DNA of 64,000 bases from Oligoflexia bacterium. Its GTDB lineage: Bacteria; Bdellovibrionota; UBA1018. The notes below the pieces were generated by a model. It worked only from the letters and a program-made list of their open reading frames with translations. It searched no databases and had not been told where the DNA came from. Positions 20,112-63,215 of this stretch are shown in pieces. Within the stretch, counting starts at the first letter, position 1. Each line of letters opens with the position of its first letter. The stretch is from positions 1-64,000 of the forward strand of contig CAIZRG010000036.1 in assembly GCA_903935335.1 (NCBI GenBank), in the 5' to 3' direction. Made by a program: the position numbers and the translations under genes.

Positions 20112-21182
20112 CTAGATCTCTAGCTTAAGCGTAATATGAAGTAAGTGTCGGCGTTCAGGATCCTGATTGACCAAAGTTGCTTGCTCTTCAGCATAGGAAA
20201 GATACATGACCTTGATAAACCAAAGATCAACTCCAGCTCCATAGGTGAGATACACCTGATTCACACCACCATAAAGACTAAGTAATGGAAATTTGAGCTC
20301 TAAACCAAAGTGATTTTTTTTTCTCCAATCAGCGTAATCTAAAATGTGACTGTAATCATAGGCCAGAGTAGCAACCATATCATCACTTTGATAGCTACTG
20401 GCCAAACCAAAAACGAGGTCACTTTTAATCGGACTTGAAGTTCCAGAAAAGCTAGTATCTCCAATATTTTTAAAAGCTAAAGCTGACTTGAGAGATAATT
20501 TTTTTTTGATCTGATAAACAAATTGAACACCAGAATCTAACCCATATCCACTTCCTAAGGATGAGTTCAATTGATTGATCATTGATTTTGAATCAATCGT
20601 TAAAAGCTCCATTAAACTTACTTTTTGATAACCCCCACTTCGAAAAAGATATTTTCCTGCCAATCCAAACCGAAGCTGACCTTTTTTTTTACGAAGTGTG
20701 AGAACAGGCACCCCAAAAGCAGCTTGAACACCATATGTGTTCTGCCTTTGAATCGAAAGAACGGGTAACGCCTTATTTTTTAGACTCACTCCCAGTTGTT
20801 GATCATACAATACTGAAACTCCAAAACCTGGGAAAACAAAATCAGAAGAAGCTTGAGCTCTTGCGTAAATATTCTTTCCCATAAAATTATTTAAAACGGA
20901 AAAACCAGAATTTGAGAGAGCATTGGATAAATCAGAATAGGAGTTAACCGCGTCATTTGACACCTCAATATTTGCACTTAAACCATGAAATAATATTTTC
21001 GAAACACCTGCAAGACCTGCTGGATTATAATAAATAGCACTTTCATCGTCAGCTACAGCTGTAAATGCTCCTCCCATAGCTTGAGCTCTTGGACTTTTAT
21101 ATAACAATTGAAATTCTTCAGCATGCCCTACAATACAAAACAAGAGCAACATCAAACTGATAGAGGCATACCAATACCTCAT
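20112..21182 (-). CDS. Outer-membrane beta-barrel protein (PorV/OmpP1-like)
   Basis: After a signal peptide ending H-A (about residue 22) comes S-P-R-A-Q-A-M-G-G-A-F-T-A-V-A-D-D-E-S-A-I-Y-Y-N-P-A-G-L-A. This N-terminus is typical of FadL/OmpP1 and PorV/PorQ-like barrels. Alternating strands then run to a C-terminal strand ending H-I-T-L-K-L-E-I. The length is 356 residues. The ATG at 21182 overlaps the stop of the preceding gene as ATGA, so the pair is translationally coupled; an ATG 15 bases earlier is less likely. It may import hydrophobic molecules or act as a secretion accessory; sequence alone does not say. Confidence 0.8.
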   Translation of the reverse strand: MRYWYASISLMLLLFCIVGHAEEFQLLYKSPRAQAMGGAFTAVADDESAIYYNPAGLAGVSKILFHGLSANIEVSNDAVNSYSDLSNALSNSGFSVLNNFMGKNIYARAQASSDFVFPGFGVSVLYDQQLGVSLKNKALPVLSIQRQNTYGVQAAFGVPVLTLRKKKGQLRFGLAGKYLFRSGGYQKVSLMELLTIDSKSMINQLNSSLGSGYGLDSGVQFVYQIKKKLSLKSALAFKNIGDTSFSGTSSPIKSDLVFGLASSYQSDDMVATLAYDYSHILDYADWRKKNHFGLELKFPLLSLYGGVNQVYLTYGAGVDLWFIKVMYLSYAEEQATLVNQDPERRHLLHITLKLEI

Positions 21183-22136
21183 GGAGGACCTTGCCAACTT
21201 GAATTAACAAACAAACTAATTCCAGCTGCCGCACAGGAATTCACATCCGTGGTAAGACCACTACAGCTGTCTCGATTTCTCAGGGTAATAGGACAACTCG
21301 TACAAGTGACAGCACCTGCGCAAGTTGTTGCACACCCAAAAGCACAAGCAGCATTGATAGCAGGCTTTAGAAATGAAAGAATTTTTTCATAATTATCATT
21401 ACTAACTAACGCAACTGCAAGAACAGAATCAATTCCATCAATCATATTTAACAGAGCAGCAGAAAAAGCACATCCATCACCCTGAGTGTTTGCTGGAAGA
21501 TCCCAAGGAAGGTTAACACTTTTATGATTGTTTGCAGTAGGACTTCCATATCGAGATTGCAAAGAACCCATTAATGCCATTCCTAAAAAAATAATGTAAG
21601 CATTTGCATCATCCCTTCTATCAGAAGAAAGAAGTGTTCTAGGATTGTTAACATCCAAATTAAGAATATTACTAGGAATAGTAATAGTATCTGGATTAAT
21701 TATAGACATTACTGCATCCATCCCATTCATGGCAGACTGAGGAATCCTGTCGTCAGGACTGGCTGTTGAATAAAATTCTTGAGCTAAAAACTCCCAAAAC
21801 CCAGAACCTCCCAAACTAGCAGGGAAATTAATAATATCTGAAAAAATATTAAAAATATTTATTTTAGAATAGCACCCATAAGTAGACGCCATTGCTAAAC
21901 GAATTTCATTATTTGTATTTGAAGAGTTATACAGAGGGTGAATCTTTAGATACGCTGCTGAGCAATTTTGATATGAAAGCTCAATATTGACTTGATCGAT
22001 AACTGAACTAATTAAAAGATTATTTGCAGCTGGATTTACAGAGTCATAACCTGGAGCAGCACAATTCGTAGAAAAAAATAAGACCAGGGAAAACCCACAT
22101 AATTGATTTAATTTTATCTCTAAAATACCAAACCAT
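21179..22136 (-). pseudogene. Exported Cys-rich protein gene split by a frameshift at a T7 tract
   Basis: The intact downstream frame encodes at least 237 residues from an internal ATG at 21892, but it stays open upstream to about 22145 without any ATG, GTG or TTG. In the neighbouring frame an ATG at 22136 starts M-V-W-Y-F-R-D-K-I-K-S-I-M-W-V-F-P-G-L-I-F-F, a typical signal-sequence start. Losing one T from the run of seven (A7 on the plus strand, 22072-22078) would join it to S-T-N-C-A-A-P-G-Y-D, giving a lipoprotein-like N-terminus. The mature part has many Cys near its end. It follows the aminotransferase by 17 bases and overlaps the barrel gene by ATGA, so it belongs to that operon. Cause may be mutation, slippage or assembly error. 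No family recognised. Confidence 0.65.
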
Positions 22137-22153
22137 CCTTGGTTTAGGGAGCT

Positions 22154-55523: not shown

Positions 55524-56813
55524 TTGAATAGAAAAAAAAGAATTGTTGTTACCGGGATGTCAATTTCTACGCCTCTTGGAAATACGTTAAATGAAGTTCT
55601 TGAAAATCTTTTCCTAGGAAAATCTGCTATCACAAAGCTTGATCCTCATTTATCCTCTGAAATTGACTGTAAAATTACTGGAAATTTATTAAGCTATGAC
55701 TTTGATTCTGAAATAAAATGTTTAGAAAAAAACATTCCAGAACAAACTTATTTAAAAATGAATAAGTTTCTTAAAATAGCTCCATGGTCCACCTGCATTT
55801 CTTCTTTACTGGGAGTAAAAGCCTGGAATGATGCTGGATTATTTGACTACTGTATTCCACCTGAAAAGATAGGCTCTATTGCAGCAGGCCATAACATCAA
55901 TATGGGCTATATCTTTAAAAACGATGCTCAATTTAAGACGACTCCTCATTTTATTGATCCTTTTTATAGTCTACATGTACTAGATACGGATCATGCAGCC
56001 ACGATCTCTGAGCTCATACAAGCTCGGGGGGCTACATACACTTCAGGAAGTGCTTGTGCAAGCGGTAATACGGCTCTCAGAAGTGCCATTGACGAAATTC
56101 GCTACCATAATCTAAAAGTTGCAATAGTAACAGGCCCAGTTTTTGACTACTCACAAGTTGTACTTCATAGCCTTGCTTTAATGGGAGCCATCAGTACTAA
56201 AAAATTTAATGATACACCCTCAAAAGCAAGCCGTCCATTTGACAGAGACCGAGAAGGATTTGTTCCATCACATGGAGGTGGAGCTTTAGTAATTGAGAGT
56301 CTTGATTGCGCACTGAATCGAGGCGCACGAATTTATGCTGAAATTATTGGAGTTGAAGTCACTTCTGATGCTAGCCATCTTCCTCAACCTTCAGAAAATG
56401 GGCAAATCGCTGTACTGAAAAAAATTTTTAAAAAAACAAAAGTTTACCCTGAACAAATAGACTTCATTTCTGCACATGCAACCTCCACACCTCTGGGGGA
56501 CCTCACTGAGGTTCGAGCAATACAGAAATTCTTTGGGACTCATACAAAAAAAATAAAAATAAATGCACCGAAGTCTTTACTCGGACATACTCTCTGGTCT
56601 TCTGCCATTGTAGAAACCATAGTCGCTATTCTACAAATGAAAGCTGGAAAACTCCACCCCAGCATCAATATTGAAAACTTAGATCCTAAAATAGATCTAG
56701 ATATCTGCACCCACACAGAAACTCATCATCCTATCAATTACTTATTAAAGAATTCTTTTGGATTTGGAGGTATCAATTCTGCATGTATCATTCGATCTGA
56801 ATTGGCGATCTGA
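55524..56813 (+). CDS. Beta-ketoacyl-ACP synthase (FabF/KAS II-like)
   Basis: Condensing enzyme extending acyl chains on ACP. The catalytic Cys178 is in T-S-G-S-A-C-A-S-G-N, with His in A-H-A-T-S-T-P-L-G-D and in K-S-L-L-G-H-T-L-W-S. At 429 residues it is close to FabF. Start is a TTG after GAGGAG. It is not in a fab cluster; its neighbour is a convergent ACP gene, suggesting a dedicated acyl-chain pair outside bulk fatty-acid synthesis. The stop codon lies inside a 13-bp tandem repeat. Confidence 0.88.
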   Translation: MNRKKRIVVTGMSISTPLGNTLNEVLENLFLGKSAITKLDPHLSSEIDCKITGNLLSYDFDSEIKCLEKNIPEQTYLKMNKFLKIAPWSTCISSLLGVKAWNDAGLFDYCIPPEKIGSIAAGHNINMGYIFKNDAQFKTTPHFIDPFYSLHVLDTDHAATISELIQARGATYTSGSACASGNTALRSAIDEIRYHNLKVAIVTGPVFDYSQVVLHSLALMGAISTKKFNDTPSKASRPFDRDREGFVPSHGGGALVIESLDCALNRGARIYAEIIGVEVTSDASHLPQPSENGQIAVLKKIFKKTKVYPEQIDFISAHATSTPLGDLTEVRAIQKFFGTHTKKIKINAPKSLLGHTLWSSAIVETIVAILQMKAGKLHPSINIENLDPKIDLDICTHTETHHPINYLLKNSFGFGGINSACIIRSELAI

Positions 56814-56837
56814 ATTGGCGATCTGAATTGGCGATCT
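56794..56837 (+). repeat. 13-bp tandem repeat across the KAS stop codon
   Basis: The unit GATCTGAATTGGC occurs three times in a row (56794-56806, 56807-56819, 56820-56832) plus five bases of a fourth. The KAS gene stop TGA (56811-56813) falls in the second unit. As 13 is not a multiple of three, copy-number change would alter the protein end. The repeat copies are identical, suggesting a recent duplication. Confidence 0.9.
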
Positions 56838-57181: not shown

Positions 57182-57994
57182 TTGAAAAATTCAACTACTC
57201 TAGACATCCAAGGTCAGACAATACTATCCGCTCTTTTCGCAATGGGAGTTTCTTCCACTCTTGTTTTGACTATATTAGCCATTAACAATATTTCAATGAA
57301 AATTTCAAAAACTCAAGACATTCGACAAGAAGTAAATGATTTTAGAAATTCAATGAATTCTATTACAAACGACAAAATTCTTTGCAATCTGTTCTTTAAA
57401 GACATTCCACTTAACCCAATGAATTCTGTAGAAGCGATTAACTCAATACCATCAGGAGGAAGCATTTCTCCTAGCATGGAGTTTCCAGAAGCAGGCACAA
57501 GCTTACTGCAAGTCGGTACACCTATCTCACGATCATTACAGATATCTTCAATTTCATGGTCAAACGTAGCATATCTTTTGACAGGAAAATTATATTATTA
57601 CCAGAACGGTAAAGTAACTTTTCCAGTTTCTGTTACTCTGAATATAGACTTAAAAATAAGAGATGATGTAAATGCAAAATTATTTGGTTCCTCATCTTTT
57701 AGTGTCTCAATTCCAAATTTAAATTTTTCAACATCTTTTGATCTTTTATCAGATGAAGTTACCCGAATTATTCAATGCAACTCTAATTCTTCTTTAAATA
57801 GTTCCATTGTTTTTAACACGGGGTGGGGAAATTTAAATGATCCACAATGCACTTCTTACAATACTTCCCCGATGGACCCCAATATTCACTGCCCTCAAGG
57901 TCAATACCCTGTCAGCATGACTTATTCTGATATTACAAGCATCCAAAGACTTAAAGTCAAATCATATGTTTGCTGCGGTGTTTCAAATTTTTAA
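57182..57994 (+). CDS. Type IV pilin-like protein A (without Cys module)
   Basis: A short leader ending in Gly11 precedes Q-T-I-L-S-A-L-F-A-M-G-V-S-S-T-L-V-L-T-I-L, a pilin-like hydrophobic helix; the usual Glu at +5 is Ser, so it may be an atypical or GspK-like minor pilin. The C-terminal part (W-G-N-L-N-D-P-Q-C ... C-P-Q-G-Q-Y-P-V-S-M ... Y-V-C-C-G-V) is clearly related to the ends of the two pilins downstream but lacks their ten-Cys insert. Start is TTG with a weak ribosome site. First of six co-directional genes in an A/T-rich block. Confidence 0.65.
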   Translation: MKNSTTLDIQGQTILSALFAMGVSSTLVLTILAINNISMKISKTQDIRQEVNDFRNSMNSITNDKILCNLFFKDIPLNPMNSVEAINSIPSGGSISPSMEFPEAGTSLLQVGTPISRSLQISSISWSNVAYLLTGKLYYYQNGKVTFPVSVTLNIDLKIRDDVNAKLFGSSSFSVSIPNLNFSTSFDLLSDEVTRIIQCNSNSSLNSSIVFNTGWGNLNDPQCTSYNTSPMDPNIHCPQGQYPVSMTYSDITSIQRLKVKSYVCCGVSNF

Positions 57995-58053
57995 AATTTT
58001 ATTGCACTAAATTGTTCAATCATTAAAAAGTTGATAAAAAATAATTTTAAATT

Positions 58054-59040
58054 ATGATTAAAATCTACTTACTCATTAAAATGAAAAAAATAATATTTTT
58101 TAAAAATCACTGGAATCATGGAATGACTCTCATTGAAACCATGATTTCCGGAGCGTTAATTTCTGTTGTAATTTTAGCTACGTCGAATGTTGTTGGAATT
58201 GCTGCAAAATTAAGAAAATCCTCAGTGAGTAAACAAGCTTTATTTGATTTTAAATCTAAAGTAAGAAATGCAATCAATGATCTTTCAAGCTGTGTCCTGA
58301 TCACATCTCCTACAGCAATTGATCCATCCAATTTCTCAGTTCAAGCACTACCTCAATTATCTATTCCAGGCTACACTTATGATACTAGTTCAAACAATAA
58401 AATCCAAGACAATGTAACTATTAAGACAATTTCATTTCAAAAAAATCTTGATTTAAATTCAAAGTTTGGATCAACCAACTTCACAATTAATTCTGTTAAC
58501 TATTGGCCAACTTTAGGTACTATCAATATTGGAATTGAAATCATTGGATTTGGGATCGGATCAGGAAGTACAAGCACAATCAATTACGCTTTTCCTATCA
58601 CTATTACTTTTCAATCATCTTCAAGTACTGGATTCAAATGGACTATTGGACAATGCTCAGCAAAACTTCCTGAATCTTTTACAAATTTAGGCTGGAGTTC
58701 AGAAAATCAATCTGACCCACACCTTTGCAAAAATTTTGAAATCTCTGCAAACACTGCGATGACTTGTCCAGCCGGAATGTACTTGATAGGACCCAGTCAG
58801 ACACTTATTAAAGTCCCTATTACAATTTATTCTCCATCTTGCAGTTGCAATGGAAGCTGTAAAGGATGTGCCTGTATTGCTGGGTCTTCATGTAGTGCTT
58901 CTTGTGATTCAAATGGAAATGTATCCGTACCTTTCAACCATTGCATGGGAACTTGTAATGCTTCCCCACAATGCAATGGTACTAATACAACTATAGATGT
59001 AGAAAAAATTTCAATTACTTGTTGCAAAGTATTAAAATAA
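58054..59040 (+). CDS. Minor type IV pilin B with ten-cysteine module
   Basis: Classical prepilin N-terminus: a basic leader, cleavage after Gly in N-H-G, then M-T-L-I-E-T-M-I-S-G with Glu at +5 and a hydrophobic helix. The body is beta-rich. Near the end is C-P-A-G-M-Y-L-I, then a module of ten Cys with spacings 1, 3, 2, 1, 5, 3, 12, 3 and 5, followed by I-S-I-T-C-C. Pilin C has the same module with identical spacing. An internal ATG (58081) gives a more usual 14-residue leader and may be the true start. Prepilin peptidase is not in the window. Confidence 0.8.
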   Translation: MIKIYLLIKMKKIIFFKNHWNHGMTLIETMISGALISVVILATSNVVGIAAKLRKSSVSKQALFDFKSKVRNAINDLSSCVLITSPTAIDPSNFSVQALPQLSIPGYTYDTSSNNKIQDNVTIKTISFQKNLDLNSKFGSTNFTINSVNYWPTLGTINIGIEIIGFGIGSGSTSTINYAFPITITFQSSSSTGFKWTIGQCSAKLPESFTNLGWSSENQSDPHLCKNFEISANTAMTCPAGMYLIGPSQTLIKVPITIYSPSCSCNGSCKGCACIAGSSCSASCDSNGNVSVPFNHCMGTCNASPQCNGTNTTIDVEKISITCCKVLK

Positions 59041-59120
59041 ATACTTAAATAGTATATAAGTAGTTTCACATTTTTTTAAAACTGTGCTGGTAAAAAATAA
59101 TTTATTTAAATATTAATAAT

Positions 59121-60128
59121 ATGGAAAAATTAAACAAAAAAAAGAATAAACAAAAATTTAGTTGATTTTTTTTTATTCTTTTTTTTGTTTTATTTATTTA
59201 TTTTAAAAACAAAACAAAAGACTTAATTAATCCAATAAGTTCTGAAAAAACTACTGAGATTGAAAAAAAACTAGATGAGTCAAATTATTTAGAAATTAAG
59301 CTCCCAAATGAAATTGTAGCAGGAGAGTGCAATCAAATACAAGTAACGCTAAAAGATCAAACAAATAAAGAAATTTACTCTAATTATGATCTTTTTTTAA
59401 AAATATTAGACTCTAAAAATAATGCAATCACTTTATTTGAAAAAAATACTTGCGGTGTAACAGACTCTCCTACTCTTAAATTTAAAATTTTAAAAAAAAC
59501 AAATTCTTCTTATTTTTACACTATATTTTATGCAGTTGGTCCTATTAAAACTGAAGCAGTTGACTCCACAGGTTCTTCTATAAAAACACAGTTTGAAAAC
59601 ACTCCATTAGTTCAACCAAATTTTAAAAAAACAAAAATAATATTTTCTAAACTACCAAAATATTTTATTGAAGGCGAACCTTTTTCTGTAGATATCATTA
59701 TTTCTGATATTCTTGGAATTCCATTAAATTCAACTCTAGAACCAGTTAAACTTTCTTTAAAAGTTGATGAAAAAAATACCTCTTTACCACTAGGAGAAGC
59801 TAAGGTAGTTAATGGAGTTGCAGAATTTAAGAACCTTTTAATTGATGAATTAGATGGAAATAAAGCTCAACTTGTTGCATCTATTGGAGATAATGTCTTA
59901 ACCAGTGATTCAATTATTAAAGGCACATTCAAGAGCCGAACAATTCAAGTTGAAGTCGTAGGAATGCAAACTTTCTCTGGTCATCTAATTACACCTTCTA
60001 GTATTGAAGTCATTAATAAAATTTGGAAGATTGAAAAAGTAAACTCAAAAAAAACAGTTAACATTAACGGAGTCAACTATTCTATTGAATTTAAAAACTT
60101 TAATAGTGTCATTCTTAAACCAATGTAA
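59121..60128 (+). pseudogene. Membrane-anchored beta-sandwich protein gene with one in-frame TGA
   Basis: From ATG 59121 the frame reads M-E-K-L-N-K-K-K-N-K-Q-K-F-S, then TGA (59163-59165), then continues F-F-F-I-L-F-F-V-L-F-I-Y-F-K-N-K without another stop for over 300 codons to TAA at 60126-60128. The two sides together make one basic-then-hydrophobic N-terminal anchor. Trp (TGG) is the simplest original codon. There is no ATG, GTG or TTG after the TGA that would keep the anchor. The rest looks like two or three Ig-like beta domains (E-G-E-P-F-S-V-D-I-I-I-S-D and V-V-N-G-V-A-E-F-K-N-L). Pilin C follows seven bases after the stop. May be a nonsense mutation, readthrough or a sequencing error; TGA is a normal stop in other genes here. 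Confidence 0.75.
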
Positions 60129-60135
60129 TTATAAA

Positions 60136-61119
60136 ATGATTAATATTTTATATTTTAATAAAAATTTTAAGATATTTTTCTTAAAATTATGGGTATCTCA
60201 AAAAGGTTATAGCCTCATTGAGTTAATGGTTGCACTATCTATCGGAAGTATGATGGCACTTGGACTTTCGAAGTCTCTTGAATATACCTCCAAGTCATTA
60301 AATACAAATACAATCAATCAGGATCAAACTGAATTTCAAAGAAAAATAAATAATGCTTTGAGCAACCCAACTTATTGCACTCAGCTGATTGCAAGTTCAT
60401 TAGATCCTAGCTCAACCAGTAATCAACCTATATCTCTGCAAGCCGGAAACAATTTGTATAACGGAAATAGCTCCCCGTCTATCAGTAAAGATCTTAGAAT
60501 TAATTCATTATATTTTTTAAAAACTAACGACTCATTTTTAAATGGAGGTTCAAATTTTTACACATCACAAAACACCAACTATTGGCCTTTGAGTGGAAAC
60601 ATTGTTGTTAATATAGATAATCTATCAGTTTCTAGCAATCGATCTTACGGAAAAAGATCTATTAGTTATACTTTTTCGATTAATTTGACTTTGCAAAGAC
60701 CCGCATCTGGAGGTTCATGGACTATCAGAAGTTGCTCTACAGAAATCCCTGAAAATATAATAAACTCTGGCTGGAACACGGCGGACACTTTAGATCCGAA
60801 TTACTGCACTACCCTTACTACAACTTCAGGTGATAACATTATTTGCCCCAGTGGCATGTACCTAATATCACAAGTGCAATCAACTCAATACATTTCTAGA
60901 ATATCTTATACCCCACAATGCGATTGTGTCGGTAGTTGTAAAGGCTGTGCTTGTGTCGCAGGTTCAGCTTGCAGCTCTATGTGTGATTCTTCAGGAAATC
61001 CAAACGTAACAGCTAATAGCTGTATGGGAACTTGCAATGCTAGTGCAAGTTGTAACGGTTTTCCTGTTATAGATTCAGTTCATAAGCTAACTGTAAAATG
61101 CTGTTATGCTAAAAAATAA
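60136..61119 (+). CDS. Minor type IV pilin C with ten-cysteine module
   Basis: Start at ATG 60136, seven bases after the previous stop; a TTG at 60085 inside that gene is less likely. A leader of about 24 residues ends in Q-K-G, followed by Y-S-L-I-E-L-M-V-A-L-S-I-G, the standard N-methylation segment with Glu at +5. The C-terminal third has the same W-N-x-x-D-x-L-D-P and C-P-S-G-M-Y-L-I elements, the same ten-Cys spacing and the same final C-C pair as pilin B. It is thus a paralogue and probable partner in one pilus tip or pseudopilus. Its end overlaps the next gene by 14 bases. Confidence 0.82.
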   Translation: MINILYFNKNFKIFFLKLWVSQKGYSLIELMVALSIGSMMALGLSKSLEYTSKSLNTNTINQDQTEFQRKINNALSNPTYCTQLIASSLDPSSTSNQPISLQAGNNLYNGNSSPSISKDLRINSLYFLKTNDSFLNGGSNFYTSQNTNYWPLSGNIVVNIDNLSVSSNRSYGKRSISYTFSINLTLQRPASGGSWTIRSCSTEIPENIINSGWNTADTLDPNYCTTLTTTSGDNIICPSGMYLISQVQSTQYISRISYTPQCDCVGSCKGCACVAGSACSSMCDSSGNPNVTANSCMGTCNASASCNGFPVIDSVHKLTVKCCYAKK

Positions 61120-62164
61120 AACACAAGAAATAGAAGAATTATCTATCCATAAAGGAATATCAATATGCTCTATGATTGGACTTCACACCATTATTTGGTG
61201 GATGTCTAAAGGAAATGACGGATTTATTATAAAAAATTGGGATAAATATGAGTTTATTCTAACTCCTTATGTTCTTTTTTTTGGATGGTTATCTTTATCA
61301 TTTGCATTTACTTCAGGATTTTCTTTCCATCTTTGGATTTTTAATAAATCCAATTTCCCTAACCTATTCTCAATTATAAAAAGAGTTCTTTTTTTGTTTA
61401 TTGTAGGTTGGTTTTTAAATCCAAAAAGTTGGTATATTTTTCAATTTTTATCAGTTTCGATGGCATTATCATACTTATTGATCAAATATTTTTGTATAGA
61501 GTTTATTTGGATTTTTACATTTTTATCCCCTTTTGGAGCAAACATTTTAAGATACTTTCATCTGCCCTGGGAGGGCTCTTACTTGGAAGCAATACTAATT
61601 GGAGATAAGAATGGTCTCTATTTCTGGCCTTTTTTCCCATGGTATTTTCTTTTTGGATGCGGAATATTGTTTAGAGATATAAAGTTAAAGGTATCAAAAA
61701 AATCTAGAAACTTAATGATCAAAATTTTTTTAATTTTATCATTATCTTTTTTAAATATTGGTGAATTTTTTAAAATAATAATGCCAACCATAGATCTTAC
61801 TCATTTTTGGGGCACAGGTATTTTTCAACCTAATCTTTTTCAGTTTTTTTCTTGGTCAGCATTAATCATTAATAGTTTTATCGCAGTAGAGTTTGTCTCT
61901 AAGTTCAACTTTAAAAAAATATTTTACGCATTTAAAAAAATTGGAGAATACAGTTTAATTATTTACATTATCCACTATAAATTTTTCGTGAGTTATGTTT
62001 TTTTATATAAGAACGATGATTTTTCCAGACTATTTATTTTAATTTTACTTCAAATTTTATTTTCAATTTTTATTGGAGTTATTTTAGATTTTTTTATAAA
62101 AAAAGTTTATATGGAAAAACAAATAGAGAAAAAAAAGAATGCATGGCAAACTAGCAATATTTAA
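61106..62164 (+). CDS. Multi-pass membrane protein, acyltransferase-like
   Basis: About ten membrane helices in 352 residues. The opening E-E-L-S-I-H-K-G-I-S-I-C-S-M-I-G-L-H resembles the first helix and catalytic-type His of DUF1624/acyltransferase-3 enzymes (R-G-x-x-I-x-x-M-x-x-x-H). Helices with P-F-F-P-W-Y-F-L-F-G-C-G and a late Y-S-L-I-I-Y-I-I-H-Y support that superfamily. It would O- or N-acylate a surface sugar or lipid, but substrate is unknown. It overlaps both neighbours, so it is tightly tied to the pilin block. Very A/T-rich. Confidence 0.6.
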   Translation: MLKNKTQEIEELSIHKGISICSMIGLHTIIWWMSKGNDGFIIKNWDKYEFILTPYVLFFGWLSLSFAFTSGFSFHLWIFNKSNFPNLFSIIKRVLFLFIVGWFLNPKSWYIFQFLSVSMALSYLLIKYFCIEFIWIFTFLSPFGANILRYFHLPWEGSYLEAILIGDKNGLYFWPFFPWYFLFGCGILFRDIKLKVSKKSRNLMIKIFLILSLSFLNIGEFFKIIMPTIDLTHFWGTGIFQPNLFQFFSWSALIINSFIAVEFVSKFNFKKIFYAFKKIGEYSLIIYIIHYKFFVSYVFLYKNDDFSRLFILILLQILFSIFIGVILDFFIKKVYMEKQIEKKKNAWQTSNI

Positions 62165-63215
62165 TCCAATTTTTTCAAAAAAAATAGACCTGCTTATTTT
62201 TATAACTCCAACGATTATAGCTTCTATATTAATACTTGCTTGCTTCAGATTGAGTTTTTATTTCCCAGTATCTTTCTCTTATGAGAATATTCAAATTTAT
62301 TTCTATAGCGTATACACTGTTTTTTTAATGGTTCCACATTCTTACGCTACTTTTTATAAAGTTCATGACGATAGAACTATGTTTGATGGAGCTTATCAGA
62401 TTGAGTTCAAGTATTTTTTTTTGTTGGTGTTTTTTTCAGGTATTGTTTTTTTTAAATTACCAAGAATTTTTTCTGTTGTTTTAAGTTACGCTGATATTTT
62501 TCACCATGTCAGACAACAATATGGGTGGATGGTTCTTTCTCAGCGAAGGCAATTGACTCTGTCTACTCATGAATCCATCCTGGATAAATTAATGATTTAT
62601 AATGTCATGATTACTCCTTTGCTTTGGTGGCATTTCAACCCAACGAATTTTGGATGGATTCAAAAAAATGATCTTTTATTTTTTAATTCCCCTTTGTGTG
62701 GAGCAATTACTATTGGGATTCATTGGATTTTTAATTTATATTTTTTCTCAATATATTTATATTGGTATTTAAAAGGAAAGCAGTTCAACTTAGGGAAAAT
62801 TTTAATTATTTTAAGCACATGGTTTTCATTTTACTTTGGAATTTTGAATTTTGAGGACGGAGTTAAAAGTTTACTAGTGACTTTTAATCATACTATTCCT
62901 TATCTTTTTCTAGTGTATAGATACATCGGCAGTCCTAACAGGCTAGGCCACAAGAGTCCCAGAGTTTCCAATAAAAGCTGGATGTCGTTTTATCTCCCTC
63001 TAGTTTTTATTGGACTTTTAATTAGTTCTTTGCAATTTTTAAAAATTAAAAAACTGCCTCTTTTAGATGGTGGAATCGCATTTGCTGCAGTAACTGGAGG
63101 AATATTTCACTACTTTTTTGACACTTTTATTTGGAGATTCCATAGAAAAGAAACAAGATTAACAGAGTTTTTAGATATACAGGGTCAGAGATTTAAAAAA
63201 TTAGGTCATCAGTGA
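62139..63215 (+). CDS. Multi-pass membrane protein with conserved-looking histidines, unknown family
   Basis: About eight helices in 358 residues with polar clusters at helix ends: V-P-H-S-Y-A-T-F-Y-K-V-H-D-D-R, A-D-I-F-H-H-V-R-Q-Q-Y-G-W, F-N-H-T-I-P-Y and F-H-Y-F-F-D-T-F-I-W-R-F-H. Repeated His/Asp near membrane faces are typical of metal-dependent membrane enzymes (hydroxylases, Brp/Blh-like oxygenases), but I cannot assign a family. The start overlaps the acyltransferase-like gene by 26 bases, and its end overlaps the convergent next gene by seven bases. Last gene of the A/T-rich block. Confidence 0.6.
   Translation: MHGKLAIFNPIFSKKIDLLIFITPTIIASILILACFRLSFYFPVSFSYENIQIYFYSVYTVFLMVPHSYATFYKVHDDRTMFDGAYQIEFKYFFLLVFFSGIVFFKLPRIFSVVLSYADIFHHVRQQYGWMVLSQRRQLTLSTHESILDKLMIYNVMITPLLWWHFNPTNFGWIQKNDLLFFNSPLCGAITIGIHWIFNLYFFSIYLYWYLKGKQFNLGKILIILSTWFSFYFGILNFEDGVKSLLVTFNHTIPYLFLVYRYIGSPNRLGHKSPRVSNKSWMSFYLPLVFIGLLISSLQFLKIKKLPLLDGGIAFAAVTGGIFHYFFDTFIWRFHRKETRLTEFLDIQGQRFKKLGHQ

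Follow-up and report, generated by a model that had tools for sequence, protein, structure and literature searches.

Gene X, as we call it here, lies at positions 59121–60128 of the forward strand in the window, the 64,000-nt stretch of DNA that was analysed. Its frame leads from an ATG start through 335 codons to a TAA at 60126–60128, and the sole stop within it is a TGA at codon 15 (59163–59165, forward strand), after which 320 codons are stop-free up to the TAA. An earlier note on this DNA had described an ATG and a TAA in one frame with a single TGA at codon 15 and more than 300 open codons downstream, and both descriptions were confirmed. At the base composition of the gene the chance of 320 stop-free codons is about 3e-13, the other five frames over the gene contain 14–49 stops each, and codon usage scores positively, at 0.145 per codon. 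The frame is coding, and not a product of chance. The first in-frame ATG, GTG or TTG past the TGA is the ATG at 59964, preceded by 266 codons without a start; this start-less lead is the largest among 286 coding-like segments in a sample of 456,679 bases, made up of the window and a further 392,679 bases from its genome. Since no in-frame ATG, GTG or TTG occurs until 59964, standard gene calling would miss the gene, as the earlier note had expected, and X is absent from the listing of open reading frames of the window at ≥80 aa. There is no second copy in the genome.

With the TGA read as Trp, protein X is predicted to have 335 aa, with a Lys-rich N-terminus, one membrane helix as anchor and a strand-rich remainder forming a domain of about 300 aa. 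A structure model of low confidence (mean pLDDT 41) places a helix at residues 15–35, followed by strands. The only Pfam match was the macroglobulin-like MG4, below threshold (18.7 bits versus a cut-off of 24.7), and NCBIfam gave no match. No prepilin motif was detected, as neither N_methyl nor IV_pilin matched in Pfam or NCBIfam, and comparison of the protein X profile with solved structures returned two chance-level matches only (E 0.64 and 0.96). The low-confidence helix and strands and the sub-threshold MG4 match suggest that X may be a surface protein, and the use of this label in the earlier note is kept here as a prediction.

The genes on both sides of X form a type IV pilin-like cluster, with a prepilin N-terminal motif that is clear in the downstream neighbour (60136–61119, forward strand; N_methyl, E 1.7e-7) and weak in the upstream one (58054–59040, forward strand; N_methyl below cut-off, 36% identical to the downstream pilin). 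Further upstream lies an open cluster gene (57182–57994, forward strand) that is prepilin-like by reading only, with no significant family match and no N_methyl match. Downstream of the second pilin follow two open genes for membrane proteins, one at 61106–62164 (forward strand; weak Acyl_transf_3 match below cut-off) and one starting at 62139. Gene X is separated by 7 nt from the pilin ATG at 60136 and by 80 nt from the upstream pilin stop (59040), so that the tight spacing between two pilin genes claimed earlier holds on the 3′ side but not on the 5′ side. An Rfam search of the window gave no match, and a scan for promoters and terminators gave a signal no higher than expected from shuffled sequence. 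The block of pilin-like and membrane-protein genes (57182–63215) has a GC content of 0.26–0.35 versus 0.39 for the window overall, which makes it A+T-richer than most of it, and it may have been acquired from elsewhere. A perfect 13-bp tandem repeat of 3.5 copies is found at 56793–56837, where it overlaps the 3′ end of a ketoacyl-synthase gene.

The sole orthologue of X was found on contig 23 (JACPOE010000020.1) of a Bdellovibrio sp. MAG (G012), which belongs to the same family and another genus. It is 28% identical to X, ends with its contig after 161 residues and adjoins a preceding prepilin-like gene, as X does. In the alignment, S-W-F-F of the orthologue faces S-stop-F-F of X; the codon of its Trp20, at the place of the TGA, is TGG, and the orthologue contains no stop codon. 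Its ATG lies upstream of the anchor and of the position equivalent to the TGA. The one orthologue found thus combines a sense codon at the site of the stop with an upstream start, as is to be expected for a nonsense-interrupted gene. As grounds for refuting its proposal the earlier note had named orthologues with a different start and no anchor; this one starts upstream and so does not refute it, and its aligned TGG supports the reading of the TGA as Trp. When the query included the N-terminus, with Trp in place of the stop, the E value improved from 9e-6 to 1e-7, a comparison in which the queries also differ in length.

Matches to X were seen in 2 of 35 genomes of the family, its own genome counted. 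A profile search of the phylum yielded matches in 3 of 368 genomes, namely its own, G012 and a weak domain match in G233 (E 4e-4); the latter was rejected as an orthologue, the matching domain being part of a 730-aa protein that lacks the X N-terminus. Profile searches of order, class and phylum (55, 58 and 368 genomes) revealed no orthologue beyond G012. Scanning of genome contigs returned nothing with the X protein and the G012 record only with a two-row profile, and pilin searches in the family, with the G012 and G020 loci inspected in detail, gave no additional X gene. Because the orthologue carries TGG at this position, the TGA in X appears to have replaced a Trp codon, and for Trp as the ancestral state at codon 15 the evidence is good but not deep.

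An inverted repeat (59117–59205) extends over the start codon of X and the codons of its membrane anchor, and the TGA is located at its tip. The arms of 41 nt (59117–59157 and 59165–59205, forward strand) are 85% complementary and separated by 7 nt. The right arm begins with the A of the TGA, whose partner in the left arm is T59157. The repeat has a perfect 19-bp core and is one of five such repeats in the 456,679 bases (perfect arm of at least 19, spacer of at most 60). Folding of the repeat as DNA gave a z of −5.2 (0 of 200 dinucleotide shuffles) and as RNA a z of −3.2 (2 of 200 shuffles), and none of 300 shuffles in which the blocks of Lys-rich and of Phe-rich codons stayed separate matched its folding. 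This fold is absent from the first 140 nt of the orthologue, which fold differently. The longest perfect inverted repeat in the 457-kb sample is found at another locus (L084, 3566–3640) and has 34 bp with a 7-nt spacer. Imperfect inverted repeats are described as hotspots of templated mutation in excerpts of two publications (PMC7202029, PMC3820800), and it is plausible that the repeat in X was a mutation hotspot for the TGA.

Our favoured explanation, which we consider probable but far from assured, is that gene X is a recent null allele created by a single substitution of a Trp codon to TGA. The product of X, whose gene has minor pilin-like genes as neighbours, would be a bitopic envelope protein with a cytoplasmic Lys-rich tail, one membrane helix and an outer domain rich in strands. 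Exchange of a single nucleotide would have turned the Trp codon of the anchor into TGA, and the inverted repeat may have helped to cause this mutation by a templated (quasi-palindrome) error, as suggested by the A of the TGA extending the pairing. Translation would then normally stop after 14 residues and leave X null, while some full-length X may still arise from background near-cognate misreading of UGA by tRNA-Trp. That the cells really carry this change, that it arose recently and that it abolishes function is our inference. The lack of any other lesion in the 320 downstream codons supports this account. A point against it is that, under an equal-rates model, 320 codons would remain open with a probability of only about 0.01 after drift amounting to 0.1 substitutions per site; the codons still being open, either inactivation was recent or the frame is still under selection. 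This drift clock is weakened because only 11 of the 135 single changes that would create a stop in X are transitions. A further point against the account is that X has a single orthologue for comparison, at 28% identity.

The stop could also reflect a strain mixture or a consensus error in the MAG, with the population, or most of it, carrying an intact X. The genome consists of 59 contigs with 94% completeness, the relative with the orthologue (G012) is a MAG as well, and the inverted repeat could disturb library preparation or assembly. Moreover, a second gene in the window, lipoprotein-like and located on the reverse strand at 21179–22153, has no recognisable start, so that there may be two single-base oddities on one contig. 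These two genes are, however, the only ones among the 286 segments with a start-less lead of more than 80 codons, and 6 of the 286 segments were flagged in the 456,679 bases, which is unlike an error-ridden assembly. All long A/T runs of X are in frame, and the lipoprotein-like gene may use a rare ATT start with AAGGA 9 nt upstream. We regard such a mixture or error as unlikely, though as the next best explanation. The lipoprotein-like gene itself is matched in 32 of 35 family genomes (its own counted). Its first 87 codons include no ATG, GTG or TTG, and an in-frame ATT follows AAGGA after 9 nt. Among 11 loci of relatives that were inspected, two (L092, L093) have a start codon at the place matching the missing one. 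The gene may have a rare start codon or may have lost its start.

The organism uses the standard genetic code. TGA terminates 62 of 196 long frames in the genome sample, and those frames hold 1283 TGG codons. Release factor RF2 (prfB) is present (503.2 bits versus a cut-off of 370). Its gene (L058, G000:C54:117830-119000) appears to keep a CTT-TGA-C programmed frameshift, since LRGSL and a TGA close the upstream frame and the gene carries on in the next one. This is the layout of the RF2 autoregulatory frameshift of E. coli, so the host probably monitors termination at UGA. A UGA-to-Trp code change (table 4-like) was rejected in view of the retained RF2, the wide use of TGA for termination and the canonical tRNA-Trp. 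The latter is the only tRNA-Trp among 40 distinct tRNAs and has the anticodon CCA, five anticodon-stem pairs, A9 and G24. The features of UGA-reading tRNA-Trp named in the available part of PMC13092985 are a 4-bp anticodon stem, A9C and G24A, and none of these occurs in the host tRNA-Trp. No tRNA with anticodon TCA was present among the 40, and a suppressor tRNA is unsupported by this survey. The survey scored 150 of 232 candidates and the ARAGORN output contained no Leu-TAA or Leu-CAA tRNA, so a suppressor tRNA may have been missed in this incomplete list. No tRNA-Sec exceeded the cut-off of 47, the best candidate (45.6 bits) lying at a site that ARAGORN calls tRNA-Ser. Selenocysteine at the TGA was rejected for this reason, and the sole orthologue has Trp instead of Cys or Sec. 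Recoding as a control point, one of the options of the earlier note, finds no positive support, given the standard code, RF2, the canonical tRNA-Trp and the absence of a tRNA-Sec over the cut-off.

Leaky readthrough could nevertheless be selected, if tRNA-Trp misreads the UGA at a rate that yields a little full-length protein and the stop thereby keeps the envelope protein at a low dose. The TGA stands exactly where the orthologue has Trp, and Trp is what a near-cognate tRNA-Trp would add to the chain; the frame downstream is intact. According to excerpts of PMC7918605, bacterial in-frame stops can be under purifying selection, and E. coli and S. typhimurium insert Trp at TGA at a low level. 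The canonical tRNA-Trp, the presence of RF2 and the orthologue without a stop argue against such selection in X. No stem was seen on the 3′ side of the stop; the strong hairpin extends across it, and with UGA in the A site the 5′ arm would be inside or behind the ribosome. Because this arm must already have been opened by the ribosome when UGA reaches the A site, the hairpin is unlikely to aid readthrough, and with the stop at its tip it was rejected as a stimulator on grounds of geometry. A search for a readthrough context, as suggested earlier, found no element 3′ of the stop. As far as can be read from its sequence, X offers no support for readthrough above background, and we consider selected readthrough improbable. 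Within the alternative posed in the earlier note, recent inactivation (or a strain or assembly variant) fits the data, while control by readthrough or recoding received no positive support.

The stop might also be bypassed by non-standard initiation downstream or by paired slippage at the runs of A8 (59136–59143) and T9 (59166–59174) that flank the TGA. Four of the eight frame-restoring double slips tried left the frame open to the end, but none of four single slips at the A run restored it, and slippage in a single step was rejected. By reading, the ATT that follows the TGA lacks a Shine-Dalgarno-like sequence in front of it, and the orthologue initiates upstream. Bypass by these routes seems highly improbable. 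We give even less credence to a maintained dose control, in which the A/T inverted repeat would create and revert the Trp and stop codons by templated mutation, combined with Trp-specific leaky reading. If it were true, a reversible genetic switch and leaky reading would together set the amount of a pilus-associated envelope protein. Should the stop prove conserved or leaky, X would be an instance of near-cognate Trp insertion controlling protein dose in a bacterium that uses the standard code.

As things stand, X is an interrupted gene from a protein family with hardly any known members, it lies in a pilus-like cluster of a Bdellovibrio relative, and its value is mainly that of an annotation note. 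It is a single-stop interrupted gene, a kind already known: as in bacterial UGA nonsense alleles and single-stop pseudogenes, there is one stop where a relative has a sense codon, and the rest is intact. Unlike in bacterial single-stop pseudogenes, the family of X is nearly unknown, with one orthologue found. X shares the TGA at a Trp position and the open frame with natural in-frame stops for which readthrough is suspected (Belinky et al. 2021, PMC7918605), but lacks conservation of the stop and dN/dS evidence. With the recoding of UGA to Trp through an altered tRNA-Trp, as presented in the available part of PMC13092985, it has in common a UGA where Trp is expected, whereas the host has a tRNA-Trp CCA with a 5-bp anticodon stem, keeps RF2 and uses TGA as a common stop. 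Finally, compared with the quasipalindrome template-switch mutations in the excerpts of PMC7202029 and PMC3820800, the mutation event in X is deduced from the sequence, but the changed base likewise lies at the inner edge of an imperfect repeat and extends its pairing, and the inverted repeat makes a quasi-palindrome origin of the stop directly testable.
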